Source: a virus. Taken from it: a stretch of 39,089 bases of DNA. The notes under the pieces are model-generated. The model ran no database searches, was not told where the DNA came from, and saw only the letters and a list, made by a program, of their open reading frames with translations. A program made the translations under genes and the position numbers. Numbering within the stretch: position 1 is the first letter of the stretch; each line of letters begins with the position of its first letter. Below are positions 12,077 to 38,327 of this stretch, piece after piece. The DNA is taken from IMG/VR virus record IMGVR_UViG_3300020215_000884, positions 1-39,089 of that record, one strand, 5' to 3'.

Positions 12077-12874
12077 TTACGCTATTCTTTTCACGGAAAA
12101 ATTGTCCATCGAAAGCGTTGCGCCGGACGTAGCGGCAAGCGTGAACGTCTGCGTAAATGTGTCCGAAATCACCCGCTCTTCCGTGTAGGTGCCAGGGACT
12201 GGCCGCCCCGTCCCACTGCCGGCAAATGAGAAAAACGCCGTGCCTGCCACTCGCGACACGAGCGTGAACGTGACTTCATAGGTGCCGGCGTTGACCGGAT
12301 GGATGCTTGACGTTTGCGTACACGTCTTTGTGCCGGACCCGCCCGCGGCGTTCAGGGTGCCGCCGGAAATGTTGGCGGGATTCGCCCCGCCCAGCGTCCA
12401 CCCATCGGCGCTGTCGAAACCGCCGTTGACGACGAGCTCGACGTTAAGCGGCGTTTCGACGGGACCAGTGACGACTATATCGTCGACCGACAAAACAGGG
12501 CCGCCGTTGGCGACGAATGTTTGGGTCGGGCCGGCACGGATAAGCTCGCTGTAGGTGCCGTTTGCGCTTCGGGCTAGCCCGTTGGTACCCCCCAATTGTG
12601 CCTGAAAGGCCGATCCTTCAAAGTCGGACACCGTATACTCGACCTGGTAGAACAGGCCTTCCACAAGGGGGGAGTTCGTGTCGCGAAAAGCGGTTCCGTT
12701 CTCGCCGAATGTCAGCTTGCCGTCTGCAATGATGTTGGTGCCGCCGCCCTGGTCCGTGATCGTCCAACCAGCCGCGCTATCGAACGTCCCGTTGTCGATC
12801 AGGTTCTCGGGCCCGGCCGGGCCCGGCCGCCGTCTCGCCAGCAACAGCCGGAAATCGAGGGCTCGCGAACGCAT
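12077..12874 (-). CDS. Tandem carbohydrate-binding-like (jelly-roll) virion protein
   Basis: The 265 residues contain two similar modules of about 120 residues. The first begins NLIDNGTFDSAAGWT (about residue 25), the second LVVNGGFDSADGWT (about residue 147). Each ends in a D-N/D-hydrophobic strand (LSVDDIVV and LSMDNFSV). The NGxFD...W start is typical of CBM4/9-like beta-sandwich modules, often used as decorations on phage particles. The ATG at 12874 overlaps the preceding stop as TGATG; a TTG just upstream is less likely. Its neighbour is a glycosyltransferase, hinting at a sugar-related virion decoration. Confidence 0.7.
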   Translation of the reverse strand: MRSRALDFRLLLARRRPGPAGPENLIDNGTFDSAAGWTITDQGGGTNIIADGKLTFGENGTAFRDTNSPLVEGLFYQVEYTVSDFEGSAFQAQLGGTNGLARSANGTYSELIRAGPTQTFVANGGPVLSVDDIVVTGPVETPLNVELVVNGGFDSADGWTLGGANPANISGGTLNAAGGSGTKTCTQTSSIHPVNAGTYEVTFTLVSRVAGTAFFSFAGSGTGRPVPGTYTEERVISDTFTQTFTLAATSGATLSMDNFSVKRIA

Positions 12875-26737: not shown

Positions 26738-27103
26738 CTACCCCCTCCCCTTCTTAAGGAGGGCTCTACGATCCTCGTTGGAGAGGTAGAGGGACGGCTT
26801 CTCGGAAAGCCAGTTGATCCGAGTGCGCCCATAGACAGGAATATCGATAACGTCGGATCGGCAGATGCGCCGGGGCGGAGGCGGGGCGATCGGCGGGGCC
26901 TCGTCGACAAGAACCTCAATGGCGCGGGCCCTGTTGCGGAGGCGGCGGATGAAGCCGCGTTCCTCCAAGGCCTCGAGCAACCGAAAGACACCGCTCCGGC
27001 TGCCAAGCCCCAGCGCCTTCCGCATCTCCTCGAAGCTCGGGCACAACTCCCTCGTCTGGATATAGACCAGCAGCTCGCGCATGCGGGGGGTGAGGCCGAT
27101 CAT
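26738..27103 (-). CDS. LexA-like winged-helix DNA-binding protein without protease domain
   Basis: Residues 1-65 (from [20 protein letters not shown]) match the LexA N-terminal domain: [20 protein letters not shown] is the recognition region, [19 protein letters not shown] the wing. The remaining residues are Pro-rich ([10 protein letters not shown]) with a short end, and the S24 peptidase domain of LexA is absent, so it cannot self-cleave. The ATG at 27103 overlaps the preceding frame's stop (ATGA) and has GAGGG upstream; an in-frame TTG earlier is weaker. It is probably a phage transcription regulator in the left operon. Confidence 0.75.
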
Positions 27104-27438
27104 GCCGCCCTCGTAGAAATACGTGCGGCGCGGCTGATCCAAGTTAGTGGCGTTCTCAGTGAGTTACGGGCAAAGGTGGACGTTCTGCCTGAGGGGTTGG
27201 GCGATTCTCCGTGGTATGGAGATACGCCTTGGAAACGAATGTTGTTGTCCACCTCGACGGGCCGCCGGCCGTTCAAATTCGCAAGGGCGTGGCCCGCGTT
27301 GTCGATCACACCGGAGGCATCCGGATTGAGCGGGCGATGGCCGTTTCCGATCTGGAGGAATATGTCGCGCGCGGAAAACGGGCGCTGGAGCGCTTTGCCC
27401 GCGGCGAGGGGGACGTTGTTGAGGACTGAGACGCTCAC
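27100..27438 (-). CDS. Unidentified protein, 112 aa (strand uncertain)
   Basis: The minus-strand frame joins both neighbours by exact overlaps: GTG with the Cro-like gene's stop (GTGA) and stop with the LexA-like ATG (ATGA). That strongly suggests a real coupled gene. Its third codon positions are mostly G or C. However, the product ([18 protein letters not shown]... ending [11 protein letters not shown]) is low in charge and unfamiliar, and a plus-strand frame at 27211-27429 encodes a more protein-like sequence ([27 protein letters not shown]). I prefer the minus strand because of context, at moderate confidence. Confidence 0.45.
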
Positions 27439-27629
27439 GCCGCAGCCTTCTCCGGCTGGTACTCGGCCATGAAGCGGCGAACACGGTCCTCTGTCTCCGG
27501 CCAAAGACGACGGCCGGTGCGAAGTTGGCGGACGAATTTCCAGTCGTTGACCGCCAACCGACCGAACGTGCTGTCCGGCATTCCGTGCTGGGCGGTGAAC
27601 GCTTGAATGTCAGCGAGTAGCGTCTGCAT
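27435..27629 (-). CDS. Cro-like transcriptional regulator, first gene of the left operon
   Basis: The 64 residues from the ATG at 27629 (MQTLLADIQAFTAQHGM, STFGRLAVNDWKFVRQL, PETEDRVRRFMAEY) resemble small phage HTH regulators found opposite CI-type repressors. It is the first gene after the left promoter, whose TATACT -10 box lies 11-16 bases before the ATG. The mRNA would therefore begin 3-5 bases before the start, almost leaderless, and no ribosome binding site is present. An operator with GCGGGA-N4-TCCCGT overlaps the promoter. A Cro role (turning off the repressor gene) is inferred from position and size. Confidence 0.65.
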   Translation of the reverse strand: MQTLLADIQAFTAQHGMPDSTFGRLAVNDWKFVRQLRTGRRLWPETEDRVRRFMAEYQPEKAAA

Positions 27630-27639
27630 GGGGGCGGAT

Positions 27640-27668
27640 AGTATACGGGACGTGTCCCGCACGCAAGC
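27640..27668 (-). promoter_or_regulatory. Left early promoter with operator O1
   Basis: The -10 box is TATACT at 27645-27640. A weak -35 (GCTTGC or CTTGCG) lies at about 27668-27662. The spacer is filled by the operator GCGGGA-CACG-TCCCGT (27660-27645 on this strand), so a bound repressor would block the promoter. Predicted start of transcription is about 27633, next to the Cro-like ATG at 27629. Confidence 0.6.
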
Positions 27669-27675
27669 GCCTTAT

Positions 27676-27691
27676 GCGGGAACCTTCCCTA
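27676..27691. promoter_or_regulatory. Operator O2 in the switch region
   Basis: GCGGGA-ACCT-TCCCTA has one perfect half-site and one with two changes relative to GCGGGA-N4-TCCCGC. Its centre lies 31 bp from O1 and 20 bp from O3, between the divergent promoters, as expected for a weaker middle site in a lambda-like switch. Confidence 0.5.
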
Positions 27692-27693
27692 AA

Positions 27694-27722
27694 TTGCGGG
27701 AAATACCCCGACGTCCGATAAT
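27694..27722 (+). promoter_or_regulatory. Repressor maintenance promoter with operator O3, leaderless transcript
   Basis: TTGCGG (27694-27699) and GATAAT (27717-27722) are 17 bp apart. The predicted transcript start falls at about 27729-27730, on the ATG of the repressor gene, so the mRNA would be leaderless as for lambda cI from PRM. Operator O3 (GCGGGA-AATA-CCCCGA, 27696-27711) fills the spacer and would let the repressor or Cro-like protein shut it off. Confidence 0.62.
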
Positions 27723-27729
27723 GGCTCGC

Positions 27730-28467
27730 ATGCCCGCCAGCGACGTAATCGACTATCCGAGACTCCGGCGATTGGTGCGCGATCGCGTCGGCGGGGTCGG
27801 TCAGCCATCGCCAAGAAAGGCGTCCTTAGCGGCGACACGCGGCAAGAACGAGGACATGGTCCGCAACCTGCTTGATGGAACAGATTCCTCCGTGGACGCT
27901 GTGTTTGGCCTTTGCGACTTTCTGAAAATCCCGCTGCCCCAAGTGATCAAAGCGATAGCCGGGGAGCGCGTCCCGGCAAGGACGTGGCTAACGGTGACGG
28001 GCTACGTCCAGGCGGGATCGTGGCGAGAGCCCGTAGACGACAATCCAGACGAGATGTTCCAAGTTGAGGTGGAGGAATTGCCCATCTATGATGGACAACA
28101 CGGGCTATTAGTCCGCGGTCATTCGATGAATAAAATATTTCCTCCAGCCACCGTGCTGCGGTGCGTGGATCTGATCCTAGCCGGCACAGATATCGAAATT
28201 GAGCTTGGCGACTATGTGATTGCCGAGCGAAAGAGGGCTGGCCTTCGAGAGCTCACATGCAAGCGCCTTCAACGAGCGGCAGACGGCTCATGGGAGTTGG
28301 CATCAGAATCGACGCTTCCAGAATTTAGGGACCCCATTCCAGTGGGGCTGCCAAGTGAGGGCTATGACGACATGGGCGAAGATGAAACGCGCGTCCGCGC
28401 CATAGTCATTGATGCCTATCTACCGCTTCCCCGCCGACCGCGGCGGCCCCTGCCAGATGAAGGCTAA
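27730..28467 (+). CDS. cI: CI/LexA-type repressor with S24 self-cleaving domain
   Basis: The 245-residue lysogeny regulator has an N-terminal HTH domain (about 5-75; DMVRNLLDGTDSSVDAVFGL). The S24 peptidase domain has the usual VTGYVQAGSW start, with A95-G96 as likely RecA-stimulated cleavage site, catalytic S132 in RGHSMNK and K178 in LTCKRL. It should repress both early promoters through the GCGGGA-N4-TCCCGC operators and be inactivated in the SOS response. I chose the ATG at 27730 because the promoter's transcript would start there; an ATG at 27721 lies inside the -10 box. The downstream lipoprotein gene overlaps its end. Confidence 0.92.
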   Translation: MPASDVIDYPRLRRLVRDRVGGVGQPSPRKASLAATRGKNEDMVRNLLDGTDSSVDAVFGLCDFLKIPLPQVIKAIAGERVPARTWLTVTGYVQAGSWREPVDDNPDEMFQVEVEELPIYDGQHGLLVRGHSMNKIFPPATVLRCVDLILAGTDIEIELGDYVIAERKRAGLRELTCKRLQRAADGSWELASESTLPEFRDPIPVGLPSEGYDDMGEDETRVRAIVIDAYLPLPRRPRRPLPDEG

Positions 28468-28738
28468 GCTCCTCACTCTTCTCGTTCTGCTGACCGGATG
28501 CGAGCGGTCGGTCTATGATGACTGGACTAGCGCAAGGACGGCAGAAACGGCCGATATAGCGGATGTTAACGCGAGGAACGCGCTCGCCCAAGTTTCTAGT
28601 CTTAAGGCCAAGGTTGTGGAGCTCGAGCAACAGAATGAAGCGCTCCGACGCGAGGTCCAGGACCTAGAGCGGCGTAACGAACTGATTATGGAAAGCCTCT
28701 CCTCTTTTCAGCGGACCTATAACAGCCACACGCACTAA
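28457..28738 (+). CDS. Coiled-coil lipoprotein co-expressed with the repressor
   Basis: MKAKLLTLLVLLTGC is a lipoprotein signal with the lipidated Cys at residue 15 (next residue Glu, so outer-membrane retention is expected). The mature 78 residues include a strong leucine-zipper helix (about 47-80; LKAKVVELEQQNEALRREV, QDLERRNELIMESL). The start lies inside the end of the repressor gene (11-base overlap), so it should be made in the lysogen from the maintenance promoter. A surface lipoprotein made by the prophage is a good candidate for superinfection exclusion. It ends just before a terminator. Confidence 0.72.
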   Translation: MKAKLLTLLVLLTGCERSVYDDWTSARTAETADIADVNARNALAQVSSLKAKVVELEQQNEALRREVQDLERRNELIMESLSSFQRTYNSHTH

Positions 28739-28739
28739 G

Positions 28740-28761
28740 GCGGGACGCTCCCCGCATTTTT
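28740..28761 (+). terminator. Intrinsic terminator of the repressor operon, overlapping operator-like site O4
   Basis: GCGGG-ACGCTC-CCCGC (28740-28755) forms a five-base G/C stem followed by A and TTTTT, a classic Rho-independent terminator one base after the lipoprotein stop codon. The same bases read GCGGGA-CGCT-CCCCGC, one change from the operator consensus, so the site may also bind the repressor next to O5. Confidence 0.7.
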
Positions 28762-28764
28762 CTG

Positions 28765-28793
28765 TTGACGCGGGAAGCATCCCGCACTAGTAC
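28765..28793 (+). promoter_or_regulatory. Right early promoter with operator O5
   Basis: TTGACG (28765-28770) and TAGTAC (28788-28793) are 17 bp apart. The spacer holds the perfect palindrome GCGGGA-AGCA-TCCCGC (28770-28785), the best operator in the set. Transcription would begin at about 28800 and run into the right-hand operon; the first gene starts at 28822. The -10 box is poor, so an activator or another start is possible. Confidence 0.62.
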
Positions 28794-28821
28794 GGCTCCC
28801 AATCACACAGGGAGCTGACCA

Positions 28822-29013
28822 GTGCCAACCACCTACGCGATCGCGTCCGACTATTCCGAGGTCCTCCCAACTGAGGACGGCTTCGGCAAGTTCGCCACGG
28901 AGCTTGAGGCGGTCGAATACTGGATTGACCTGCTGGAAACCCAGCGCGCGGTTACGGCCGAGCACCTTGCGCGCGCCAAGCGCCGTCGGCGCGCTCTGAA
29001 GCAAGCCACCTGA
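28822..29013 (+). CDS. First gene of the right operon, hypothetical, 63 aa
   Basis: The GTG follows AGGGAG by about seven bases; nearly the same leader (CACACAGGGAGC-GACC) stands before the next gene, an unusual repetition of a ribosome binding region. The protein has a short acidic N-terminus and a basic helical end (ERLARAKRRRRALKQ-like). No known domain. As the first product from the repressed right promoter it could be an early regulator or anti-host protein. Confidence 0.6.
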   Translation: MPTTYAIASDYSEVLPTEDGFGKFATELEAVEYWIDLLETQRAVTAEHLARAKRRRRALKQAT

Positions 29014-29040
29014 TCACTCATCACACAGGGAGCCGACCGA

Positions 29041-29748
29041 ATGTCACAGCAGCGGGAAGAGGGAAGGATTGGGGCGATTCCTGCTTCGCAGGACCGCTCT
29101 GCCGCCCTTCGGGCTGAGCCTGCTGCGCAGTCTCAGGCAAAGCCGGCTGCCGCTATCGCTGACGAGTTTCAGCGCCGCGTGCAGTTCTCTCCGTCCTACG
29201 ATCGCCGCGCTGAGGGCTACGGCATCGGCAATGTCCGCATCTGGTTTTACCTGATCGGACCGGCAGGCGCAGTTCAGTGGCAGATCGGAACCAACTGGTA
29301 CGTGCCGTCGGCGCAAGAGCATTTGAAGGCGCTTGATCCACGCGTTCAGAGCGTCCTCGAAAACTCGCTGGCAGGCAATCGCTATCAGCCGCAGGCATGG
29401 GACCTCGGCTATCATTCTCGCGAACCTCTCTACGACTATGCCCGAGAGGCGGGGCCCTCCCAATCCGCATGCGAGGTCCTAGGCGGAGATCCCTGCTACT
29501 ACGACGGCTCCAGCCTGAACGCCGAACTGCTGATTGTGCCCTTCCTAGAAGGAGGCGACAAGGCAGTTTGGGAGGCGCTGGAGGCGTACTATCGCCACAC
29601 GTTCGAGGGCCAGCCTTGGCCCTTCGACGATGCCGGAAAACTCACCGCGGCGACAACCGCGAAGACGGGTGCCGTCGAAGACGAGAGCGCGGTCGGCAAC
29701 GCCGATGCGCCCAACGACCCCTCCAAAGCTCGGGGTGAGGCATCATGA
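29041..29748 (+). CDS. Conserved-looking phage protein of unknown function, 235 aa
   Basis: Residues 11-41 or so are encoded by repeat copy R5. The core (about 42-205) is a normal folded protein with many aromatic residues (GYGIGNVRIWFYLIGPAGAV, WQIGTNWYVPSAQEHLKAL, RYQPQAWDLGYHSREPLYDY) and Cys residues (CEVLGGDPCYYDGSSL), ending in an Ala/Asp-rich tail. No signal or membrane segment. It has a good ribosome binding site (AGGGAG) and overlaps the next gene by ATGA. The composition suggests a single globular domain but I cannot name it. Confidence 0.65.
   Translation: MSQQREEGRIGAIPASQDRSAALRAEPAAQSQAKPAAAIADEFQRRVQFSPSYDRRAEGYGIGNVRIWFYLIGPAGAVQWQIGTNWYVPSAQEHLKALDPRVQSVLENSLAGNRYQPQAWDLGYHSREPLYDYAREAGPSQSACEVLGGDPCYYDGSSLNAELLIVPFLEGGDKAVWEALEAYYRHTFEGQPWPFDDAGKLTAATTAKTGAVEDESAVGNADAPNDPSKARGEAS
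29072..29163 (+). repeat. Dispersed palindromic element, copy R5
   Basis: GGGCGATTCC start, hairpin CCTGC-TTCG-CAGG, hairpin GCCC-TTCG-GGGC, TGAG...CTCA arm (compensating the usual CGAG...CTCG) with inner CTGC-TGC-GCAG, GGC-AAA-GCC hairpin, and a CGCTATCGC end that pairs with the start. It encodes residues of the gene at 29041-29748. Confidence 0.75.
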
Positions 29749-30236
29749 CGGGCAAGGACGGGCGCGTGCCTTCGGCACCGGGCTCTCGTGAACCGAGCCC
29801 TGACGGTCTCGGCCCTTCGGGCTTCGATCCCTCGCGCGTCACGTGTCCCGGCTGCGGTGCCAACATCGCAAAGGAGTGGGCTGCGGTTCTACCCGACGAG
29901 ACCGACCTGACGTTCGTGATGGAAGTTGCTGAGGGCCAGATGATTCAGGCGCAGACCCTCGGCGGCGTCGTCACCCAATTCGACAAGATGCAGAAGGCCA
30001 TCGGCAGGGAGGCGGGCGCGAAGACGACGACGCTCATCAAGTCGCTCGGCATGGATGAGAACGGCACGATCAGCATCACGTTCCGCATTTGCAATGTCGC
30101 GCAGAAAACTCGCCGCGATAGCGATGGAAGCCCGGAGGGGCGAGACGCGCAGCGGCTCGACGGCGAAGCCGCGACAGCGCGGGCCGAAGCGAAAGCTGAG
30201 GCATCGCCCAACCCCAGCCCGAAAGCCCAGCCATGA
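29745..30236 (+). CDS. Small protein flanked by repeat-derived ends, 163 aa
   Basis: Residues 4-33 come from repeat R6 and residues 124-156 from repeat R7 in the opposite orientation, so only the centre (about 34-123) is original. The centre has a CPGCG motif and a mixed fold (DETDLTFVMEVAEGQMIQAQ, TTTLIKSLGMDENGTISITF). The ATG overlaps the previous stop, and its stop overlaps the next ATG. The centre may be a small zinc-binding domain; the function is unknown. The double insertion is unusual. Confidence 0.6.
   Translation: MTGKDGRVPSAPGSREPSPDGLGPSGFDPSRVTCPGCGANIAKEWAAVLPDETDLTFVMEVAEGQMIQAQTLGGVVTQFDKMQKAIGREAGAKTTTLIKSLGMDENGTISITFRICNVAQKTRRDSDGSPEGRDAQRLDGEAATARAEAKAEASPNPSPKAQP
29757..29839 (+). 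repeat. Dispersed palindromic element, copy R6
   Basis: GGGCGCGTGCC start with TGCCTTCGGCA hairpin, GGCTC...GAGCC arm, GGTCTCGG, perfect GCCC-TTCG-GGGC hairpin, and a CTCGCGCG end. The coding frame (DGRVPSAPG) is identical to that of R3. Confidence 0.7.
30113..30212 (-). repeat. Dispersed palindromic element, copy R7
   Basis: Minus-strand orientation: GGGCGATGCC start, a CGGCTTCGCCG-type hairpin, CGAG...CTCG arm with inner GC-rich stem, GCCC-CTCC-GGGC hairpin, ATCGCTATCGCGG end identical to R2. It encodes the C-terminal residues of the gene at 29745-30236. Confidence 0.7.
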
Positions 30237-30487
30237 CCCCCTCAGAACCATGGAGGCCGATAGCCGAGGCGCTGGAAGCTTACGACATACAGTCGGGCCA
30301 GTGCCCGTTCGCCAAGAAGCGGACGCCGCCGAAGGAAAAACCGTGCCCAAAATGTGGCGCCGAGGCCTCAGAGGGTTGCCGAGAGCAGACCGTTGCCGCC
30401 TTTCGGTTCGTGCTCGCGGTTCGCCGTACAGTGGAGCGCGCCCATGCTTTTCCTCCCCAGGTGAAGAAGGAGGGGCAGGGACGATGA
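30233..30487 (+). CDS. Small zinc-ribbon-like protein, 84 aa
   Basis: The product has CPFAKKR and CPKCGAEASEGC, a possible three- or four-Cys zinc site (about residues 24-49), between a short N-terminal helix (WRPIAEALEAYDI) and a basic C-terminus. Zinc-ribbon proteins of this kind occur often in phage accessory operons. The start overlaps the previous stop (ATGA) and its stop overlaps the next start. Specific function unknown. Confidence 0.6.
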   Translation: MTPSEPWRPIAEALEAYDIQSGQCPFAKKRTPPKEKPCPKCGAEASEGCREQTVAAFRFVLAVRRTVERAHAFPPQVKKEGQGR

Positions 30488-30714
30488 GCCTTCTCGCCGG
30501 ATCACGCGGTGTGAACCGCTACGTCTATCGCCGGGGGCACGGCGCCAAGCGGCGGGTAATGCACCTCGCTGGCTATGACCGGCTGGGGCAGTTCCTTGCG
30601 CCGCTCTGTGGTTCGCCGCTGAACCTCGACACGAGCTGCAATCTGCCTCTCGGCCGCCCCGTCTGCAAGCTCTGTCTTCGTGTCGAGAACAAGCTTTCGC
30701 GAGGTCAACCATGA
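30484..30714 (+). CDS. Hypothetical protein with C-terminal Cys residues, 76 aa
   Basis: The start MSLLAGSRGVNRYVYRRGHG is basic; the middle (VMHLAGYDRLGQFLAPLCGS) and end (LPLGRPVCKLCLRVENK) carry four Cys residues with a CKLC pair, so a zinc ribbon is possible. The ATG overlaps the preceding TGA as ATGA. It belongs to a run of very short accessory genes and has no recognised family. Confidence 0.55.
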   Translation: MSLLAGSRGVNRYVYRRGHGAKRRVMHLAGYDRLGQFLAPLCGSPLNLDTSCNLPLGRPVCKLCLRVENKLSRGQP

Positions 30715-30788
30715 ACGCGCAGGTCGATGGGCTGTACGCGCTCGCTCATAATGTCGCCTTCATGGTGGATAGGGAGGCGGCGGAATGA
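30711..30788 (+). CDS. 25-aa mini-ORF between overlapping genes
   Basis: The frame encodes MNAQVDGLYALAHNVAFMVD with a short acidic end. Its ATG overlaps the previous stop and its TGA overlaps the MazG-like ATG, both in ATGA quartets. It may be a tiny protein or a coupling ORF that bridges the gap, like those at 23893-23937 and 31560-31661. Confidence 0.4.
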   Translation: MNAQVDGLYALAHNVAFMVDREAAE

Positions 30789-31081
30789 CGCGCACGGAGC
30801 ATCTTTTGTCGTGTCTCGCGGAAGAGTGCTGCGAGGTCGGCCAGCGTGTTTTCAAGGCGCTACGCTTCGGGCTTGATGAGATACAGGCCGGGCAGGAGAT
30901 GACGAACGCCACTCGCATCGCAGCCGAGATGCGCGACCTGATATCCGTTGCCCAAATCCTTTGCGACGAGGGCGTTCTTGACCGCCAAGTCATGACTCCC
31001 GGCTTCGGCTGCGTTGCAATGAAGCGCGCCAAGATCGAGCGGTTCATGGCCATCTCTCGCGAACAGGGGGTCTTGCCATGA
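30785..31081 (+). CDS. MazG-like nucleotide pyrophosphohydrolase, first copy
   Basis: The all-alpha MazG signature is present: LAEECCEVGQRVFKA gives the metal-binding E-E-x-x-E (E13, E14, E17) and IAAEMRDLISVAQIL gives E48-x-x-D51. These enzymes remove pyrophosphate from nucleotides, clearing non-canonical dNTPs or lowering alarmone-like signals during infection. The 98-residue length is typical for single-domain phage members. A second, different MazG-like gene lies at 35186-35479. Start and stop overlap neighbours (ATGA). Confidence 0.75.
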   Translation: MTRTEHLLSCLAEECCEVGQRVFKALRFGLDEIQAGQEMTNATRIAAEMRDLISVAQILCDEGVLDRQVMTPGFGCVAMKRAKIERFMAISREQGVLP

Positions 31082-31563
31082 CCCTCTCGCGCAACATCGG
31101 CTCGCCTGATACACTCCCTTCTCCGCAGACCTCCCCAGGTGGAGTGACGATCAGCCAGTGCGGGGGAACTGGTGCGGAGAGATCCCCCGACCTCCCCATT
31201 TTGGGCGATTGCCTTCGGCACCGTTCGGGCGGGCTCCGCCCCGAGCCGCGTGCCGCGTCTCAGCCCTTCGGGCGCTCGTCGACTGGCGCACAGCCCATGG
31301 TTCCAGACTCCCCGCGCCTGTTCGGACCGTCGGCCGGCGCCATCGATCTGAACGCCATAGCGCACCAGGAGAACCGCCTTCAAACGGCGCCGCTGTCGGA
31401 ACTGGTTCTCGAGCATGCCGAGCTCAGCCGGTGGCTGGATCAGCCCTACGCCGAGCTCTGGGCCGATCAGCATGCCGAGAAGTCGGCGCGGATCAAGGCC
31501 GTCTGGCAGGCGATCAAGCGGCGGTCCCCGGAATATGCCGCGAAGATGGAGAGGCGTCCATGA
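31078..31563 (+). CDS. Hypothetical protein with repeat-derived middle, 161 aa
   Basis: The long frame from 31078 (overlapping the MazG-like stop, ATGA) has a Pro/Ser-rich first part, then codons supplied by repeat copy R8 (about residues 42-69). The convincing protein begins near M74 (31297: VPDSPRLFGPSAGAIDLNA) and is a helical domain (SELVLEHAELSRWLDQPYAE, KSARIKAVWQAIKRRSPEY). Either start is possible. I do not recognise the family. The end overlaps the next small gene. Confidence 0.5.
   Translation: MTLSRNIGSPDTLPSPQTSPGGVTISQCGGTGAERSPDLPILGDCLRHRSGGLRPEPRAASQPFGRSSTGAQPMVPDSPRLFGPSAGAIDLNAIAHQENRLQTAPLSELVLEHAELSRWLDQPYAELWADQHAEKSARIKAVWQAIKRRSPEYAAKMERRP
31203..31285 (+). repeat. 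Dispersed palindromic element, copy R8
   Basis: GGGCGATTGCC start identical to R1, TGCCTTCGGCA hairpin, GGGCGGGCTCCGCCC hairpin, CGAG...CTCA arm (one mismatch) with inner CGCG-TGC-CGCG, and perfect GCCC-TTCG-GGGC. The 3' end is diverged. It is read in a different frame from R1. Confidence 0.7.
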
Positions 31564-31661
31564 AGCGCATCCTCACCATAGCAGCCGGGGACAGCCGCTC
31601 GCGCGCTTGTGCGGTCGCTGCCTTCCTCCTTTTCGTCGTGATGCTGGCGGTGATGGCATGA
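31560..31661 (+). CDS. 33-aa single-span membrane peptide
   Basis: MKRILTIAAGDSRSRACAVA is followed by a hydrophobic end (FLLFVVMLAVMA), giving a small peptide with one possible membrane helix at the C-terminus. The ATG overlaps the previous stop and the stop overlaps the next ATG (ATGA on both sides). Small hydrophobic peptides of this size may be toxic or regulatory, or may only be coupling ORFs. Evidence is the overlap architecture and the hydrophobic pattern. Confidence 0.45.
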   Translation: MKRILTIAAGDSRSRACAVAAFLLFVVMLAVMA

Positions 31662-31981
31662 GCCAAACCGACGCCACTCATGCCGATCATTCTTGCTGCC
31701 AGAGCTTCAATGGCGGCACCGTCTGGATTTGCGGACGCGACGATGAAACTTCCGAGTGGCGGAGGACAACCCATCTCCAGCCGCGCGGGTGGAATGGGCG
31801 CGTCTTCGTCCCCTGCTGCAACCGCCTAGAGCTCCCCAAGAACACTGAGGCCCAATGGTACTCGGCCTATGGGGGCTATGTCTCGGGGTGGCGCTTTCGC
31901 TGTGCGCCTAACGCCGGCTGTAACGTCCGATCTGGCTACCGCCGCACCGCCCACCTTCGGGAGGGCTGGTATGCATATTAG
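31658..31981 (+). CDS. Hypothetical Cys/Trp-rich protein, 107 aa
   Basis: The product contains SCCQSFNGGTVWICGRDDE, VFVPCCNRLELP, YVSGWRFRCAPNAGC and ends TAHLREGWYAY. Many Cys, Trp and Tyr residues suggest a small zinc-bound or disulphide-rich domain. There is no export signal, so zinc binding is more likely. The start overlaps the preceding stop (ATGA). I do not know the family. Confidence 0.6.
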   Translation: MSQTDATHADHSCCQSFNGGTVWICGRDDETSEWRRTTHLQPRGWNGRVFVPCCNRLELPKNTEAQWYSAYGGYVSGWRFRCAPNAGCNVRSGYRRTAHLREGWYAY

Positions 31982-32123
31982 GCGCAGTCCCGCGTCAGTT
32001 GACACTCACCCGAAGGGCGGAGACGCGAATGCGGCTCCGGCTCCGCTGAGTGGCGCGGTCGGCGAAGCCGAGACGCCCAAATCCCCCGCCAACCCCTCAC
32101 CGGAGGACACACCAAATGGCTGA
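31971..32123 (+). CDS. Repeat-derived mini-ORF, 50 aa
   Basis: Between the preceding gene's end (10-base overlap) and the next gene's ATG (eight-base overlap, ATGGCTGA) lies a 50-codon frame starting MHIRRSPASVDTHPKGG and consisting almost wholly of repeat copy R9. The low-complexity Pro/Ala product is unlikely to fold. As with the mini-ORF at 23119-23256, the repeat appears to be kept open and coupled to both neighbours. Confidence 0.35.
   Translation: MHIRRSPASVDTHPKGGDANAAPAPLSGAVGEAETPKSPANPSPEDTPNG
31990..32081 (-). repeat. Dispersed palindromic element, copy R9
   Basis: Minus-strand orientation: GGGCGTC start, TCGGC-TTCG-CCGA hairpin, GGAG...CTCC arm with inner CGCATTCGCG, GCCC-TTCG-GGT hairpin. 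The outer end GACGCG pairs with the GGGCGTC start, a change matched on both sides. Confidence 0.7.
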
Positions 32124-32553
32124 CCGCGGCTCCGCTGTCCTGAGCGGCGAGCTCGTCACTCGGGCGCCGCGTCCCGATGCCTACAGGCCGACGCGCTATG
32201 AAGGTTTCATCGTCAGCGTCGACACGGGCCGGACCTATCCGCTGCGGCTGGACCGGGAGGTCAGCCACACCCGCGAACTGGAGCGGCAAGAACGGCCCTG
32301 TGCACCCCCGGCGACGCTCAAAGAGGCGGTCGGCGCGGCGCTTCGCAACCATGTTCTGAACCACAAGGACAAGCTCGTCATCAAGGCGACGGACGAAGCG
32401 ACGGGGAAGGCCACCCTTCATCTGTACGCCGTGAGGCGCAAGTCGGCGCCGGATTACGTCTGGCGCAACCACGTCCAGGTTCGCGAACACAGGCTCTACG
32501 TCGAGCCGATCTGCGACCTGAGTTGGGCAGTCCTCGCGGGAGAGGTCGAATGA
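32116..32553 (+). CDS. Hypothetical protein upstream of the exonuclease, 145 aa
   Basis: The protein starts MADRGSAVLSGELVTRAPRP and has mixed alpha/beta sequence with basic patches (YRPTRYEGFIVSVDTGRTY, LKEAVGAALRNHVLNHKDKL, TLHLYAVRRKSAPDYVWRN). It overlaps the exonuclease gene by ATGA, so it may belong with the recombination module, for example as a single-strand binding or host-nuclease inhibitor, but nothing specific is visible. Confidence 0.6.
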   Translation: MADRGSAVLSGELVTRAPRPDAYRPTRYEGFIVSVDTGRTYPLRLDREVSHTRELERQERPCAPPATLKEAVGAALRNHVLNHKDKLVIKATDEATGKATLHLYAVRRKSAPDYVWRNHVQVREHRLYVEPICDLSWAVLAGEVE

Positions 32554-33773
32554 AGCCCAATCCCGGCAACCCTCCCGGGCTTCGGCGGCCGATGATGGCT
32601 TCGCCTGCCGAGCGGTTGCACGAACAGGGGCTCGACGTCGAAAGCGTCGACGAAATTCTCGAAGGCCGGCGCGGGCAGCCGGGCGTTCCAACCCGCGTCG
32701 ATCCTCCCCGGCTCCCTGACACCCCCATGTTCCCGGAGCCGGGGATCTACTTCAACATGCCGGATGCGGAATACCACGCCATACCGGCTCTGTCGAACAG
32801 CGGGATCAAGTATCTCGCCTCGTCGCCGATGCTGTTCTGGGCGAAGTCCTGGATGAACCCCAATCGGGAGGAAGAGGACCGCGAGCATCAAATCCTCGGT
32901 CGCGCCTATCACTGCCGCCTCATGGAAGGGCTGGCAGCGTTCGAGGCCCGCTTCGCCGTCCTGCCCGACAAGGCCGAGTACAAGGACTTGCTCGTCACGG
33001 ACGACGATATCCGGAAAGCGTTGAAGGACGCGGGCGAGAAGCCCCGGAGCGGCAACAAGAGCGAGCGCATCCTCCAGCTTCTGGGCGTCGATCCGTCGGC
33101 CAACATCTGGGACTCCATCGTCGCCGAGCACGCCTTCGCCAACGAGGGCAAGGCGTACATCACGGCTGAGCAATGGAAGCGGCTCGAGATTGCCGCCTAT
33201 ATGATCGACCGCGACCCGGAGCTGTCCAAGGCGTTCAGCGGCGGCCATCCGGAGGTGGCCCTGTTCTGGTACTGCCCGACCACCGGCGTGCCGATGAAGG
33301 CGCGGGTCGACTATCTGAAGACCCGCGCAATGATCGACCTAAAGAGCTTCGGCAACCAGCGCGAGCGGAGCATCGAGCGGGCCATCGCCTATGAGATCGC
33401 AGGCTATCACTACAATATCCAGCCGAGCGTCTACTTCGAGGGCGCCGCCGAAGTCCGCAAGCTGGTGCGCGAGTGCGGGGCCTCCGTGATTCACGGACTG
33501 GACGACCCATCTTGGGCGCTGAGATGGGCGCAGCATGCCGAGCCCGACAGGTGGCTTTGGGTCTTCCAGCAGAAGGGCCCGGCGCCCGTGACTCGCGGCC
33601 TCTGGTATCCCCGGGCCGGCACCACGAAGACGATCACCGACGAAATTGTCGCTCAGCAGAAGCGCAAGTTTGTCCGCCACGTCGAGATGTTCGGCGCCGA
33701 GCCGTGGTTGGATATCGCGCCGATCTACGACCTTGCCGACGAAGACATTCCCCCATTCGCAACGGAGATTTGA
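32550..33773 (+). CDS. RecE-like PD-(D/E)XK exonuclease
   Basis: The 407-residue protein contains the family start PEPGIYFNMPDAEYHAIPAL with LSNSGIKYLASSP, then LGRAYHCRLME (H121), and the active-site strand pair ARVDYLKTRAMIDLKSFG, giving D254 and D263-x-K265. This is the exodeoxyribonuclease VIII-type (RecE/DUF3799-like) nuclease that resects double-stranded ends in 5'-3' direction. It is followed directly by recT, forming a two-component annealing recombination system. The ATG at 32550 overlaps the previous stop. Confidence 0.85.
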   Translation: MKPNPGNPPGLRRPMMASPAERLHEQGLDVESVDEILEGRRGQPGVPTRVDPPRLPDTPMFPEPGIYFNMPDAEYHAIPALSNSGIKYLASSPMLFWAKSWMNPNREEEDREHQILGRAYHCRLMEGLAAFEARFAVLPDKAEYKDLLVTDDDIRKALKDAGEKPRSGNKSERILQLLGVDPSANIWDSIVAEHAFANEGKAYITAEQWKRLEIAAYMIDRDPELSKAFSGGHPEVALFWYCPTTGVPMKARVDYLKTRAMIDLKSFGNQRERSIERAIAYEIAGYHYNIQPSVYFEGAAEVRKLVRECGASVIHGLDDPSWALRWAQHAEPDRWLWVFQQKGPAPVTRGLWYPRAGTTKTITDEIVAQQKRKFVRHVEMFGAEPWLDIAPIYDLADEDIPPFATEI

Positions 33774-33775
33774 GC

Positions 33776-34546
33776 ATGGCGACCGCGCCTGAAACCGAAG
33801 AGCATAGCGCGCCGCAGTTGCCGGCGAAAATTCCGCTGGTTGCCGATGATCGCGGAATCCTGCCGGTCATCCCCCGCGATACCGAAGAGGCAGCGCGCTA
33901 CGCTCAGGGGCTCATTGCCGCCGGGATCATCCCCGACGCCTACCGCGAAGGCGGGAAGAAGGACGGCGCGCCGAACAAGGCGCTCATCCTCACCGGCATC
34001 CTAAAAGCAATGGAGCTCGGCCTTGCACCGCAGACTGGCCTCGGCACCATCATGCCGATCAATGGGCGCTTCACCGTGTGGGGCGACGGCGCGATCGCGC
34101 TGATTCAGCGGCACCGGGTCATCTCCCGGCATATCGAGACGACATGCGGGCCGGGCTTCGATCCGGACACCGGCCTTGCGGACTGGCCGGACGAATACGG
34201 CTGGGTCGCCAGCTATTGGCGGGTCGGGCAGGAAGAGCCTTACGTGGGCCGCTTCACGGTCAAGGACGCCAAGCGGGCCGGGCTCTGGAACAACAGCTAT
34301 AAGAAGCCCTGGATGATGTATCCGAACCGGATGCTTCAGATCCGGGCGCGCACCTTCGCGCTCCGCGACGGCTTCGCCGACTGCCTCATGGGGCTCGGCA
34401 TCCGCGAAGAGATTGAGGACATGCTGACCGCCGTGGCCGACGAAGGTCCGGCAGGCGCGGATAACTCAGCCCTCGAAGACGAGCCCGTGACCGATGCTCA
34501 GGACAACACCGCTGAAGAAGCGGCGGGAGAGGCCGCGCCGCAATGA
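33776..34546 (+). CDS. recT: RecT-family single-strand annealing protein
   Basis: The 256-residue product has the RecT features: LILTGILKAMELGLAPQTGL (the GLxP-type helix), GTIMPINGRFTVWGDGAIAL, RFTVKDAKRAGLWNN and WMMYPNRMLQIRARTFALRD. These form the core that binds single strands and anneals complementary DNA. It starts two bases after the exonuclease stop codon, with a GGAG nearby. The C-terminus is acidic and Ala-rich, as usual for protein-interaction tails. The HNH gene begins inside its 3' end. Confidence 0.9.
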   Translation: MATAPETEEHSAPQLPAKIPLVADDRGILPVIPRDTEEAARYAQGLIAAGIIPDAYREGGKKDGAPNKALILTGILKAMELGLAPQTGLGTIMPINGRFTVWGDGAIALIQRHRVISRHIETTCGPGFDPDTGLADWPDEYGWVASYWRVGQEEPYVGRFTVKDAKRAGLWNNSYKKPWMMYPNRMLQIRARTFALRDGFADCLMGLGIREEIEDMLTAVADEGPAGADNSALEDEPVTDAQDNTAEEAAGEAAPQ

Positions 34547-34880
34547 AGGACGCGTCCAGCATAAGCGGCTCAAGCCAAAGGCCGGAGCGCCGCCCACGGC
34601 GGCCGAGAAGCGCCACAGGGAGCGCGTGGGGGCCATGCCGTGCCTCGTGCCGGGGTGCGGAGGCAGGGCGACCATCCATCACGTCACAGCGGGCATCTAC
34701 GGTGGCCGGATCCCGCGTTCGCATCGTCGTATCGTCCCGCTCTGCCGGGCGCACCATCAACACGACTACGGTCGCGAGTGCGTCGAGCGCCTGTCGCATG
34801 GCGGCTTCTGGCGCACCCACGGGATCAACCTTCTCGCTGAGGCGGATCGGCTTTGGGCTGAGAGCGTCGCCCTGGAATGA
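34494..34880 (+). CDS. Ref-like HNH nuclease
   Basis: After a very basic N-terminal arm (PLKKRRERPRRNEGR) the protein has a treble-clef HNH domain: C50-LVPGC-55, IHHVTAG (H62, H63), RRIVPLCRAHHQHDY (C84, H87, H88) and FWRTHGINLLAEADRLW. This pattern matches P1 Ref-type (RecA-dependent) nucleases, which cut displaced strands during recombination. It overlaps recT by 53 bases out of frame; the basic arm lies partly in the overlap, and an ATG at 34635 is an alternative start without the arm. Its position in the recombination operon fits. Confidence 0.78.
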   Translation: MLRTTPLKKRRERPRRNEGRVQHKRLKPKAGAPPTAAEKRHRERVGAMPCLVPGCGGRATIHHVTAGIYGGRIPRSHRRIVPLCRAHHQHDYGRECVERLSHGGFWRTHGINLLAEADRLWAESVALE

Positions 34881-34904
34881 CCGCTATCGGCAAAGGAAAG
34901 CAGC

Positions 34905-35189
34905 ATGAGGACCGAATACGGCATCCCCGTTCCGAGAGGGGTGCAGAAGGATTGGACAAGCGGGACGATGCTGAACGCCCGCCCGTTTCTGTGCCGCTAC
35001 ACCATTCCTCACGAATGGGGCGAGCCGTCCAAATGCGCCATGTGGCGAGACCGCTTCGGCAGGCTGCGTCTCATCGTCGCACACTATTCCAACGGCTGCT
35101 CAGCCACCGTTCGCATCGACGCCAACGGGAATTGGAAAACGTCCTTCGGGGACGTGACCGAACTTAAGAGGGAAGGAGAGGCGGGGTGA
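34905..35189 (+). CDS. Hypothetical protein, 94 aa
   Basis: The ATG follows AAGGA by about eight bases. The product is beta-rich with aromatics (MLNARPFLCRYTIPHEWGEP, CAMWRDRFGRLRLIVAHYS, ATVRIDANGNWKTSFGDV). It has Cys residues but no clear zinc pattern. The stop overlaps the next GTG (GTGA). A different frame from 34877 (coupled by ATGA) overlaps most of the gene, but its product is not protein-like. No family recognised. Confidence 0.6.
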   Translation: MRTEYGIPVPRGVQKDWTSGTMLNARPFLCRYTIPHEWGEPSKCAMWRDRFGRLRLIVAHYSNGCSATVRIDANGNWKTSFGDVTELKREGEAG

Positions 35190-35479
35190 GCGAGACTTTC
35201 AAGACGATTTCGGATTGGTGCGACGACACGTTCGGCCCAGCCACCCTTTTGCGCATCGCCACCCGAGCCAACGAGGAAATGGCCGAGCTGATCGATGCGG
35301 CCAGTCGTGGCGATCAGGTGAAGACGGTTATGGAAGCCGCCGACGTGCTGATCTGTCTCGCTCGGTATCCCGGTCTCTGGGAGGCCGTAGAGCAGAAAAT
35401 GGCGATCAATCGCCGTCGGACTTGGCGGCTTACGGGCGAGGGCTCGGGCTATCATATCCCACAGGATCAGGTGCAATGA
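35186..35479 (+). CDS. MazG-like nucleotide pyrophosphohydrolase, second copy
   Basis: The 97-residue product has ATRANEEMAELIDAA (E30, E31, E34) and VMEAADVLICLARY (E50-x-x-D53), the two metal-binding helices of the MazG fold. It differs from the first MazG-like gene (30785-31081) outside these motifs, so the two probably have different substrates or a distant duplication. GTG start overlaps the previous stop and its stop overlaps the next ATG. Confidence 0.72.
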   Translation: MSETFKTISDWCDDTFGPATLLRIATRANEEMAELIDAASRGDQVKTVMEAADVLICLARYPGLWEAVEQKMAINRRRTWRLTGEGSGYHIPQDQVQ

Positions 35480-36687
35480 CCCGCGATAGCGGCAGCCGCC
35501 GTGAGGCCGAGACCGGAACGGGCTCGGGGCGAAGCCCGGCAGAGCGGCCCGCCGAAGAGCGGGCATCGCCCAACCCTTGGATTCAGGAGACCCCAACAAT
35601 GCCCGGTGAGACCGAACTGCTGGCGGTCGAACGCTGCCTGAACTTCTTCGCGAGCGTCATCAAATCCGGCGAAAGCTGGTCGGCGACATGCGAGGCCGAG
35701 TTTCGCGCGGCGAAGGAAGCCCTGAACACCCGCGCCACCCCGGCTCTACCGGAGGAGCGGGCGAAGCTGGTCGAAAACCTGAAAAGCTTCGAAGCGGCCA
35801 TCCGCTCGGAAGTAGGGCAGGACCGAGAGGACGGGTGTAACGCTGCCGCCGACATGCGCGAGCGCCGGGCCGACGAACTGGCGGCCACCATCGCCTTTAT
35901 TGAACGCATGTCCGTCGCACCTCTACCGGATGAAGAAGCGGTAGAGCTTCTGGCGCGTCGTTTTTACGAGGCGCGGCCCGCGACCGGTTCGCTCGATCCC
36001 GATGAGCAGCGCCTTTCATGGGAAGAGGCTCAGACCGAGGCGGCGCCGTACGTGGCAGACTTACGCGCCTTCGCCCACCTCGCCTCCATCCCCTCCACGG
36101 TACCGGATGAAGAAGCGGTAGAGCGGGTGAAGCTGCCGCGAGAGGTGGGGCGCTCCTACGTTCGCGGGGCGAACGGCCAGTGGGTCGATCTGATAAACAT
36201 CGGGGGGCGAAAGGTTGAGGTTGATGCCGAGATAGCTCTGATAGTTCGCGCGCTGAACGATGCCGGGCTGCAACCGGTAGCCTCCTGTTCGGGCCACGGC
36301 CATCGCCCAGGCATAATCGCACTCTCTGACGGGCGCGAGATCATCATCGCCCGCGACTTTGACGAGGCGCGCCGGATCGAACGTCTGTTTCCACTCGACA
36401 TCAATGGTGATCCGACGGCCCCCCATCCCGGCCATGTTCTCGTACCGATAGAGGTGCTGGAGCCGTTACGAGCCGCCTACGATGCCTATGTGAACGTGAT
36501 GCAAAACTTCTCGGTCACAGGTGCAACGTCGGCTGAGCGTCGGTTCTCGGAGGGAGAGCGTGAAGACACCGCAAAAGAGGTGGCGCATGAGGCGCTGGCG
36601 GCAGTCACCTTCGAGCATCTCTACGCTGCCAACGAAGCCCTCGCCGCCGCTCCCGGGCCTTCCGTAGAGACGAACGATGAAGGGTAG
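35476..36687 (+). CDS. Long multi-segment phage protein with repeat-derived N-terminus
   Basis: The frame from 35476 (ATGA overlap) has 403 codons, but residues 2-33 or so come from repeat R10, and AGGAG stands nine bases before an internal ATG at 35599, which is a likely real start (362 aa). Residues 45-145 are helical and acidic. Two PDEEAVE segments (about 151 and 210) come from a 24-bp direct repeat (35924-35947 and 36101-36124). The C-terminal part has a conserved-looking domain (EVDAEIALIVRALNDAG, VASCSGHGHRPGIIAL, DGREIIIARDFDEARRIERL) of unknown function. It may be a repeat-built accessory protein. Confidence 0.6.
   Translation: MTRDSGSRREAETGTGSGRSPAERPAEERASPNPWIQETPTMPGETELLAVERCLNFFASVIKSGESWSATCEAEFRAAKEALNTRATPALPEERAKLVENLKSFEAAIRSEVGQDREDGCNAAADMRERRADELAATIAFIERMSVAPLPDEEAVELLARRFYEARPATGSLDPDEQRLSWEEAQTEAAPYVADLRAFAHLASIPSTVPDEEAVERVKLPREVGRSYVRGANGQWVDLINIGGRKVEVDAEIALIVRALNDAGLQPVASCSGHGHRPGIIALSDGREIIIARDFDEARRIERLFPLDINGDPTAPHPGHVLVPIEVLEPLRAAYDAYVNVMQNFSVTGATSAERRFSEGEREDTAKEVAHEALAAVTFEHLYAANEALAAAPGPSVETNDEG
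35481..35572 (-). repeat. Dispersed palindromic element, copy R10
   Basis: Minus-strand orientation: GGGCGATGCCC start, long hairpin CCCGC-TCTTCG-GCGGG, GGGC-TTCG-CCC hairpin, CCGAG...CTCGG arm with inner CCG-TT-CGG, GCC-TCAC-GGC hairpin, CGCTATCGCGG end. It lies between the overlap start 35476 and the strong ribosome binding site at about 35585. Confidence 0.75.
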
Positions 36688-36769
36688 GACGGCCTTCGGC
36701 AACCTGCTGGTCGGGCTACGCCCCGAGCCTGCTATGCAGTCTCGGCCATACGGCGACCATCAGGCGTAG
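36677..36769 (+). CDS. Repeat-derived mini-ORF, 30 aa, before the second ASCH gene
   Basis: The frame begins MKGRTAFGNLLVGLRPEPAM inside the end of the preceding gene (11-base overlap) and ends TAG within the ribosome binding region of the ASCH gene. It consists almost wholly of repeat copy R11. Protein function is unlikely. It is listed because the repeat is again carried in an open frame that abuts both neighbours. Confidence 0.3.
   Translation: MKGRTAFGNLLVGLRPEPAMQSRPYGDHQA
36686..36769 (+). repeat. Dispersed palindromic element, copy R11
   Basis: GGACGGCC start, GCCTTCGGC hairpin, GGGC-TAC-GCCC hairpin, CCGAG...CTCGG arm with perfect inner CTGC-TAT-GCAG, GCC-ATAC-GGC hairpin; the outer ends are shortened. 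It fills the gap between 36687 and 36779. Confidence 0.7.
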
Positions 36770-36778
36770 GAGAGCATC

Positions 36779-37078
36779 ATGAAAAAGACCCGCACCCTCT
36801 ACCTCCCGCTCAAGGGCATCTATTTCGACCAGATCAAGGCCGGCACCAAGCACGATGAGAACCGGCTGGCGAAACCCTATTGGGAGAAGCGGTTGGTCGG
36901 CCGCTCGTATGACTGCCTTGTCCTTACCCGCGGCTATCCGAAGGGCGGCGGCGTCGAAGGCGAAACCCGACTGACCCGCGCCTACGTCGGCTATACCCGC
37001 AAGAAGATTGTCCACATGCACTTTGGACCGGAGGAGGTCGAAGTGTTCGCTATCGATGTGAGGCAGCCTTCCCCGTGA
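36779..37078 (+). CDS. ASCH-domain protein (right-operon paralogue)
   Basis: The 99-residue product is related along its whole length to the ASCH gene at 24167-24478 (shared YFDQI-x-AG, KRLVGR-x-Y and VLTRGYPKGGGVEG, and the end VEVFAI). It starts MKKTRTLYLPLKGIYFDQIK with an ideal ribosome binding site (AGGAG, eight bases before the ATG). ASCH domains bind RNA or modified nucleosides. It ends in an overlap with the excisionase-like gene and so travels with the integration module. Its partner lies in the opposite operon. Confidence 0.8.
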   Translation: MKKTRTLYLPLKGIYFDQIKAGTKHDENRLAKPYWEKRLVGRSYDCLVLTRGYPKGGGVEGETRLTRAYVGYTRKKIVHMHFGPEEVEVFAIDVRQPSP

Positions 37079-37470
37079 CTCGGCGCCTTCTCACCGCCGC
37101 CCAGGTTACGGAGGAGTTCAACCTCCCGTCGGAAAGCTACGTCCGCACCATGCGCCTTCGCGGCCTCAAGCACGTTCCCCTCGGCCGCGCGATCCTCTAC
37201 GATGAGGCCGACGTCGCCGCCTTCATCGACTCCCAGAAGGTTCAGCTATGCCCCGCCCCAATTCCGGCCCCCGCCTCAAATGGCTCCCCAAGCGGCAAAG
37301 CTGGTACGTCGTCTGGTACGAGGCAGGCCGGGAAAGGCTCAGGTCTGCCGGCACGAGCGACCGCGGCCAGGCTGAAGCGGCTCTCGCCGAGATTATCGGC
37401 CAACGACAGCGGCGAAGCCGAGGTACCGGGTCTCGTGATCCGGCCCAAGTTTCCGTCGCGGAAGTCCTAG
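37075..37470 (+). CDS. Excisionase/AlpA-like HTH protein with long C-terminal overlap
   Basis: Residues 1-55 form an excisionase-type winged helix: RRLLTAAQVTEEFNLPSES, YVRTMRLRGLKHVPLGRAIL and YDEADVAAFIDSQ. This helps direct integrase towards excision. The frame continues out of phase with the integrase for 223 bases, encoding a Ser/Pro/Ala-rich basic tail that looks like a by-product of the overlap, unless it is used to couple the two. The GTG at 37075 overlaps the ASCH stop. Its place directly before int supports Xis. Confidence 0.72.
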   Translation: MTRRLLTAAQVTEEFNLPSESYVRTMRLRGLKHVPLGRAILYDEADVAAFIDSQKVQLCPAPIPAPASNGSPSGKAGTSSGTRQAGKGSGLPARATAARLKRLSPRLSANDSGEAEVPGLVIRPKFPSRKS

Positions 37471-38327
37471 ACCTCTATGGGACGGAACACGCCCCGACCC
37501 GCGCCGATCCCGCCCGAATCGGCTATGCGATCGACGCGCTGCTCTCGTTCTGGGACGGGAAGACGGTTGCCGAGATCAGCAAGACGAGCTGCCGCGCGTA
37601 CGCGAAGCACCGCCAGCGTGCGGCCGGCACGGTCCGACGGGAGCTCGGCACATTGACCGCCGCTCTCAACTTCGCCGTCCACGAAAAGCTTCTCGAGCGC
37701 GCGCCGCACGTCGAGCTGCCGGAGAAGCCGGAAGGCAAGGATCGCTGGCTGACCAGGAAAGAGGCTGCGGCGCTGCTGAACGCGGCGAGGACCGGCCGCA
37801 GCGACGTCCGCCTCTACCTGCCGCTGTTCATCCTCCTGGGGCTCTATACGGGCGCGAGGAAGCAGGCGATCCTCACTCTTCGTTGGCCCCAGGTGGATCT
37901 GGAAAGAGGCCGGATCGACTTCCGCCGCGGCTCCCGGCGGACGAACAAGGGGCGGGCGCATATCCCGATCCCCGCCCGGCTGCTGACCTTCCTCAAGCTC
38001 GCCCATCGCCGGCGGATGTCGGACGTGGGCTTCGTGCTTCACGACAAGGGGAAGCCGATCAAGGACATCGGCGGGGGCTGGGACGGGATCGACGCCGAAG
38101 GCCACGGGCAGGGTAGCTTCGGCAGCGCGTGCAAGCGGGCCGGGCTGGTCGACGTCACCCCGCACACCCTTCGGCATACGTGCGGAACCTGGCTGGCTCA
38201 GGCGGGAGTGGATTTGTGGGAGATCGCCGGCTGGCTTGGGCAGTCCTACGCGACGACTGTGGAGCTGTACGCTCACCATCATCCGGATCATATGGAGGAG
38301 GCGAAGCGGGCGAGCGACCGGCGCTAG
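37248..38327 (+). CDS. int: Tyrosine-family phage integrase
   Basis: The 359-residue protein has an N-terminal arm-binding region (PRLKWLPKRQSWYVVWYEAG), a core-binding SAM-like domain (about 68-160) and a catalytic domain with R204 in TGARKQAIL, H306-x-x-R309 in PHTLRHTCG, Q332 in WLGQS (usually His) and the nucleophile Y341 in ELYAHHHPD. It inserts the phage at attP/attB. The ATG follows AGAAGG by seven bases. The start lies within the excisionase-like gene, and its stop shares CTAG with the convergent HTH gene. The attachment site itself was not identified. Confidence 0.92.
   Translation: MPRPNSGPRLKWLPKRQSWYVVWYEAGRERLRSAGTSDRGQAEAALAEIIGQRQRRSRGTGSRDPAQVSVAEVLDLYGTEHAPTRADPARIGYAIDALLSFWDGKTVAEISKTSCRAYAKHRQRAAGTVRRELGTLTAALNFAVHEKLLERAPHVELPEKPEGKDRWLTRKEAAALLNAARTGRSDVRLYLPLFILLGLYTGARKQAILTLRWPQVDLERGRIDFRRGSRRTNKGRAHIPIPARLLTFLKLAHRRRMSDVGFVLHDKGKPIKDIGGGWDGIDAEGHGQGSFGSACKRAGLVDVTPHTLRHTCGTWLAQAGVDLWEIAGWLGQSYATTVELYAHHHPDHMEEAKRASDRR

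Follow-up and report, generated by a model that had tools for sequence, protein, structure and literature searches.

The window analysed here, a 39,089-base IMG/VR virus record with a GC content of 64%, contains the lysogeny/lysis switch of a temperate alphaproteobacterial phage, which has the gene order of lambda in mirror image and an operator sequence of its own. Three copies of the palindrome GCGGGA-N4-TCCCGC lie between divergent genes for a Cro-like and a CI-like protein, and a second array stands at the opposite early promoter, as a preliminary description of a lambda-like immunity region had proposed. The assignment to a lambda-type immunity region, in which five operators serve the CI-like and Cro-like proteins, is well supported. 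In the list below, mismatches are counted against GCGGGANNNNTCCCGC, and ranks refer to all window positions scored with a weight matrix trained on 38 sites from other contigs, the window being left out.

27435–27629, minus strand: Cro-like gene (64 amino acids, ATG at 27629), a small helix-turn-helix (HTH) protein; first gene of the leftward lytic operon
27640–27666, minus strand: predicted cro promoter (−35 near 27661–27666, −10 near 27639–27645), with its start at or next to the cro ATG
27645–27660, no strand: putative operator 1 (OR1-like), ACGGGACGTGTCCCGC, in the cro promoter spacer; one mismatch, matrix rank 2, aligned in six loci
27676–27691, no strand: putative operator 2 (OR2-like), GCGGGAACCTTCCCTA, directly 5' of the pRM −35; the weakest site; two mismatches, matrix rank 9, same register in six loci
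27694–27722, plus strand: predicted pRM (TTGCGG, 17 bp, GATAAT); the cI ATG lies 8 bases past the −10
27696–27711, no strand: putative operator 3 (OR3-like), GCGGGAAATACCCCGA, in the pRM spacer; two mismatches, matrix rank 3, aligned in six loci
27730–28467, plus strand: CI-like repressor gene (245 amino acids) with an N-terminal HTH (helix KNEDMVRNL), cleavage motif A95-G96, S132, K178 and an S24 domain
28457–28738, plus strand: small lipoprotein gene (93 amino acids; lipobox LLTGC, coiled coil) in the rex position, overlapping the cI end
28740–28755, no strand: putative operator 4 (outer OL-like), GCGGGACGCTCCCCGC, one base past the lipoprotein stop and followed by ATTTTT; one mismatch, matrix rank 5
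28765–28793, plus strand: predicted rightward early promoter, the counterpart of lambda pL (TTGACG, 17 bp, TAGTAC); TTGACGCGGG is conserved in six loci
28770–28785, no strand: putative operator 5 (inner OL-like), GCGGGAAGCATCCCGC, in the spacer of the rightward early promoter; no mismatches, matrix rank 1, aligned in six loci
28822–38327, plus strand: right early operon region with small genes of no known function and exonuclease VIII-like, RecT-like and integrase genes (PHROGs matches)
32550–33773, right operon: exonuclease VIII-like gene (PHROGs match)
33773–34546, right operon: RecT-like gene (PHROGs match)
37248–38327, right operon: integrase gene (PHROGs match)

While this kind of region is ordinary, its details are useful, and the operator family is not described in the sources searched. 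What is new is an uncharacterised operator family, the count of three plus two operators and an outer right-hand site placed directly after the repressor operon.

Proteins of the switch and their surroundings

The CI-like protein is a repressor of the S24 (LexA/lambda-CI-like) self-cleaving type, for which self-cleavage is predicted from the sequence. It contains a Pfam Peptidase_S24 domain (E 7e-7), and profile comparison links it weakly to LexA and full-length lambda CI; lambda CI is the one significant match of its predicted structure (E 4e-6), and across 15 CI relatives S132 is invariant and K178 nearly so. Single-sequence searches of viral or genome contigs returned no close relatives of the CI-like, Cro-like or lipoprotein products; relatives were reached only via the operator pattern, and afterwards via alignment. 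The window provides a testable operator sequence for a repressor family of alphaproteobacterial phages that is found full length in no named phage of a 50,697-record collection, where matches cover mainly the peptidase domain.

The Cro-like protein is predicted to adopt a helical HTH fold with weak matches to 434 repressor and Cro, and relatives with 50–63% identity are encoded at the same place in loci L006, L010 and L104. Further to the left, at the position of lambda cII, a gene on the minus strand (26738–27142) encodes a protein with a LexA DNA-binding domain only (Pfam E 1.5e-9), which may be a second regulator; no relative of it was found among the loci checked, including L006, L009 and L010. 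A 72-residue open frame on the opposite strand (27211–27429, plus), between cro and the LexA-domain gene, has a coding-like third-position GC and no clear family match in Pfam or PHROGs.

The left side of the window carries RusA-like, portal and endolysin genes (PHROGs matches) and a terminase-like gene, for which Acetobacter phage phiAX1 has the nearest relative among named phages (52% identity); at the DNA level, comparison with named phages gave no useful similarity. In the right operon, the 63-residue product of the first gene, which was considered as an N-type antiterminator, gave no significant hit to any Pfam or PHROGs family. A leader sequence, CACACAGGGAGC(T/C)GACC, occurs twice on the plus strand (28806–28824 and 29023–29043), before the first two genes of this operon.

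Probable operator sites, their recurrence and the recognition helix

All five GCGGGA-N4-TCCCGC sites lie exactly where the preliminary description had placed them and are clustered beyond chance. A pattern allowing three mismatches is not enriched window-wide (53 found, 71 expected), but when no more than two mismatches are allowed the window has 11 matches, five of them inside these 1.15 kb; a Poisson estimate based on the other six gives ~1e-6 for such clustering. Sites with a single mismatch occur by chance elsewhere in the window, at 12375 and 17443. In the independently trained weight matrix, 28770 takes rank 1, 27645 rank 2, 27696 rank 3, 28740 rank 5 and 27676 rank 9. The perfect palindrome at 28770 is indeed the best match, as had been claimed, and the middle site at 27676, also in line with the preliminary description, is the weakest by the matrix, although mismatch count alone ties it with 27696.

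Three of the sites were also said to fill promoter spacers, and this agrees with our predictions: 28770 sits within TTGACG-17-TAGTAC, 27696 within TTGCGG-17-GATAAT and 27645 within the cro promoter. The predicted promoters are only a moderate match to the E. coli consensus, and a consensus scan flagged none of them. In the window and in L006, L010, L105 and L106, 34 bp separate operator 3 and the cI start codon; operator 1 is 16 bp away from the cro start in the window and 15 bp away in each of the other four loci. Because both start codons sit where transcription should begin, the cI and cro mRNAs are probably leaderless. Leaderless cI and cro mRNAs have been shown by 5'-RACE for phage PY54 (PMC4488713).

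The same operator recurs in other genomes. A DNA-only pattern, TTGACGCGGGANNNNTCCCGC (operator plus −35), which holds no protein information, matched 17 viral contigs, in four of which (L005, L006, L009 and L010) CI relatives adjoin the match; in a fifth (L011) the sites surround another repressor-type gene. In bacterial genomes, a two-site pattern matched Azospirillum sp. B506, a Methylocystis MAG and Sphingomonas aurantiaca, and in the latter two a CI relative lies between the arrays. The window, L006 and L010 share five sites with spacings of 31 and 20 bp to the left of cI and 30 bp to the right, and L105 and L106 keep the 31/20 register with an operator changed to GCGGGTA...TACCCGC. By these comparisons the operator recurs in the same places beside related repressors, in phages whose hosts include Sphingomonas as well as other alphaproteobacteria. 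When 298 genomes of the Sphingomonas family were searched, the operator-pair pattern found only the Sphingomonas genome already known; CI relatives are sparse in this family (10 of 298 genomes), and among those newly found L186 and L187 have the site. The CI relative of Sphingomonas aurantiaca (L104, 4293–5021) is without the catalytic lysine position and the Ala-Gly pair (EPGVW; TAREI versus TCKRL) and for this reason may not be inducible by self-cleavage; in this locus an operator extends into the final codons of the CI relative.

The presence of the site goes with the type of recognition helix in CI. A search with the CI protein only yielded 74 loci, which were then clustered and scored for an upstream site with at most one mismatch. 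Nine of the 13 clusters with a [VIL]R[DN] recognition helix have the site, against none of the 26 others (p = 3e-6, a value that is indicative only, as the clusters are not fully independent) and three of 1,695 control intervals, and groups that share the peptidase domain alone are without it. Such an association is as expected if the CI helix reads the site. Four of the 13 helix-type clusters lack a close match, and three or four of these have a changed or unknown operator. GTGGGA-type palindromes are found at about 2935–2965 in a closely similar group (L132, L134) with VREI and not VRDI, and the GCGGGTA variant occurs in the cro-cI regions of L105, L106 and L110, which have PDLIRD or PDLVRD helices. 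These pairs suggest that recognition in this repressor family follows a readable code, and they form a natural series of joint changes in operator sequence and recognition helix within a fixed geometry.

A model for the switch and its alternatives

Taken together, the five sites are very probably operators of the adjoining repressor, and we consider it highly likely that the locus works as a mirror-image lambda-type switch in which a dimer of the self-cleaving CI-like repressor binds GCGGGA-N4-TCCCGC. CI at 27645 would close the leftward lytic promoter and CI at 28770 the rightward early promoter, while the middle site at 27676, directly upstream of the pRM −35, appears placed to help pRM; the site at 27696, in the pRM spacer, would serve negative autoregulation and be a target of Cro. 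By analogy, the spacings of 31, 20 and 30 bp, which are near whole helical turns, would lend themselves to cooperative binding, and a loop could form between the two arrays, which are ~1.0 kb apart. From pRM, a lysogen would transcribe a leaderless mRNA for CI and the lipoprotein, until DNA damage leads to RecA-assisted self-cleavage at A95-G96, which would open both lytic promoters.

The palindromes might instead serve another protein (the Cro-like protein alone, the LexA-domain protein or a host regulator), with CI binding elsewhere. Relatives of the Cro-like protein occur together with the sites in L006, L010 and L104, so the sites alone cannot separate CI from Cro, and a LexA-type DNA-binding domain is encoded nearby (26738–27142). 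However, the site tracks the recognition-helix type of CI in a set chosen by the CI protein only, the LexA-domain protein is without relatives among the loci checked, and no further repeated palindrome is evident around CI; we regard this explanation as quite improbable. That the sites cluster merely by chance, owing to the high GC content of the genome, is hardly credible. The lack of window-wide enrichment of the loose pattern speaks for it, but it is rejected on the Poisson estimate, the independent matrix ranks, the fixed spacing and the recurrence of the sites by related repressors.

For the outer site at 28740, it also has to be considered that it could be mainly an intrinsic terminator of the cI-lipoprotein transcript and not an operator. 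It lies directly 3' of the last stop codon, its hairpin is G+C-rich, and in 8 of the 12 loci 5–6 of the 8 bases that come after the outer site are T, while at the inner OL-like site there are never more than four. In L006, L010 and L105 a stop codon is at or next to the outer operator (TAG-CGGGA). Against a terminator role alone, the site has the operator sequence and varies along with it in L105 (GCGGGTA), the ~30 bp spacing to the inner site is conserved and the T-tract is missing in four loci; 28740 does score as terminator-like, yet such a signal is no more frequent than in shuffles, and the roles of operator and terminator are in any case compatible. A site that is mainly a terminator is unlikely. 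The outer site, usually with a T-tract behind it, may be a weak terminator too, and we propose tentatively, as a possibility with the odds somewhat against it, that the outer OL-type site serves the repressor operon both as operator and as intrinsic terminator. The RNA hairpin of the operator and the T-tract would then end the message, and bound CI would act as a roadblock. If true, operator and terminator could evolve only jointly, and transcription from pRM would be kept out of the co-directional lytic operon. Against this dual role stand the shortness of the hairpin, the four loci that have no tract, and Sinorhizobium phage phiLM21, in which a T-tract is accompanied by a separate terminator-like hairpin.

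L006, L010 and L105 have nothing in the slot between cI and the outer site, and L009, L103, L011 and the window have differing sequence there, variation that fits a slot for accessory genes. The lipoprotein that occupies it in the window belongs to no known family, with coiled-coil matches below the cut-off in Pfam and PHROGs, and no viral relative of it was found. It probably acts in superinfection exclusion or alters the host surface. Identification as RexA or RexB was rejected, as only the coiled-coil matches were obtained from Pfam and PHROGs; membership in the Ltp family (host cell surface-exposed lipoprotein) was likewise rejected, since no such match was returned by either collection.

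Relation to lambda and other phages

The preliminary description held that the layout departs from lambda, in that the repressor and its lipoprotein lie between the two early promoters with operator sites on both sides of the repressor gene. We reject this point: the lambda cI-rex genes are situated between the two operator regions, where cI-rexA-rexB is likewise flanked by pL and pR and has operators at either end, and the order in the window is the mirror image of that in lambda. The lambda rex genes lie beside cI and share its transcription from pRM, and CI at OL and OR represses the leftward and rightward early promoters (PMC11077077). The window resembles lambda in the three operators that separate its divergent cro and cI genes, the second array at the other early promoter, its accessory gene predicted to be co-transcribed with cI, its S24-type self-cleaving repressor, and the placement of recombination genes and integrase on the OL side, where the right operon matches that of lambda pL, and of packaging and lysis genes on the OR side. 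It differs in having two OL-side sites instead of three (in the window, L006 and L010), a variation in a number that is not required for lambda-like working. In addition, its operator is GCGGGA-N4-TCCCGC, sequence similarity is low, the spacing of 31/20/30 bp is unequal on the OR side with the arrays ~1.0 kb apart, a lipoprotein stands in place of RexAB, and cro is probably leaderless.

Among other systems, immB of PY54 is similar in its leaderless cI and cro and in a 16-bp palindromic operator upstream of cI, but it has one operator only (OR3), with another sequence (PMC4488713). Ltp of Streptococcus phage TP-J34 is a prophage-expressed lipoprotein that blocks DNA injection (PMC3952083); like the window product it is a small lipoprotein in a lysogeny module, but it comes from a host of a different type and the two share no family match.

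phiLM21 has a comparable set of a Cro-like gene, a repressor, a small protein with a lipoprotein-type signal, a repeat pair and an early operon. Its repressor is similar to the window CI in the peptidase domain (32%), but has another HTH, and its operator-like repeat is a different one (GTAGCGAT...ATCGCTAC). The approach used here points to candidate operators in this phage, whose prophage group had no lambda- or 16-3-type operators in a published survey (PMC12429752). In L195 (phiLM21), GTAGCGAT-type half-sites lie between the Cro-like and repressor genes (2281–2360), and two 19-nt repeats, 35 bp apart, precede the early operon (3583–3636); both are candidate operators. The gene after the phiLM21 repressor has a lipoprotein-like start (LLAGC).
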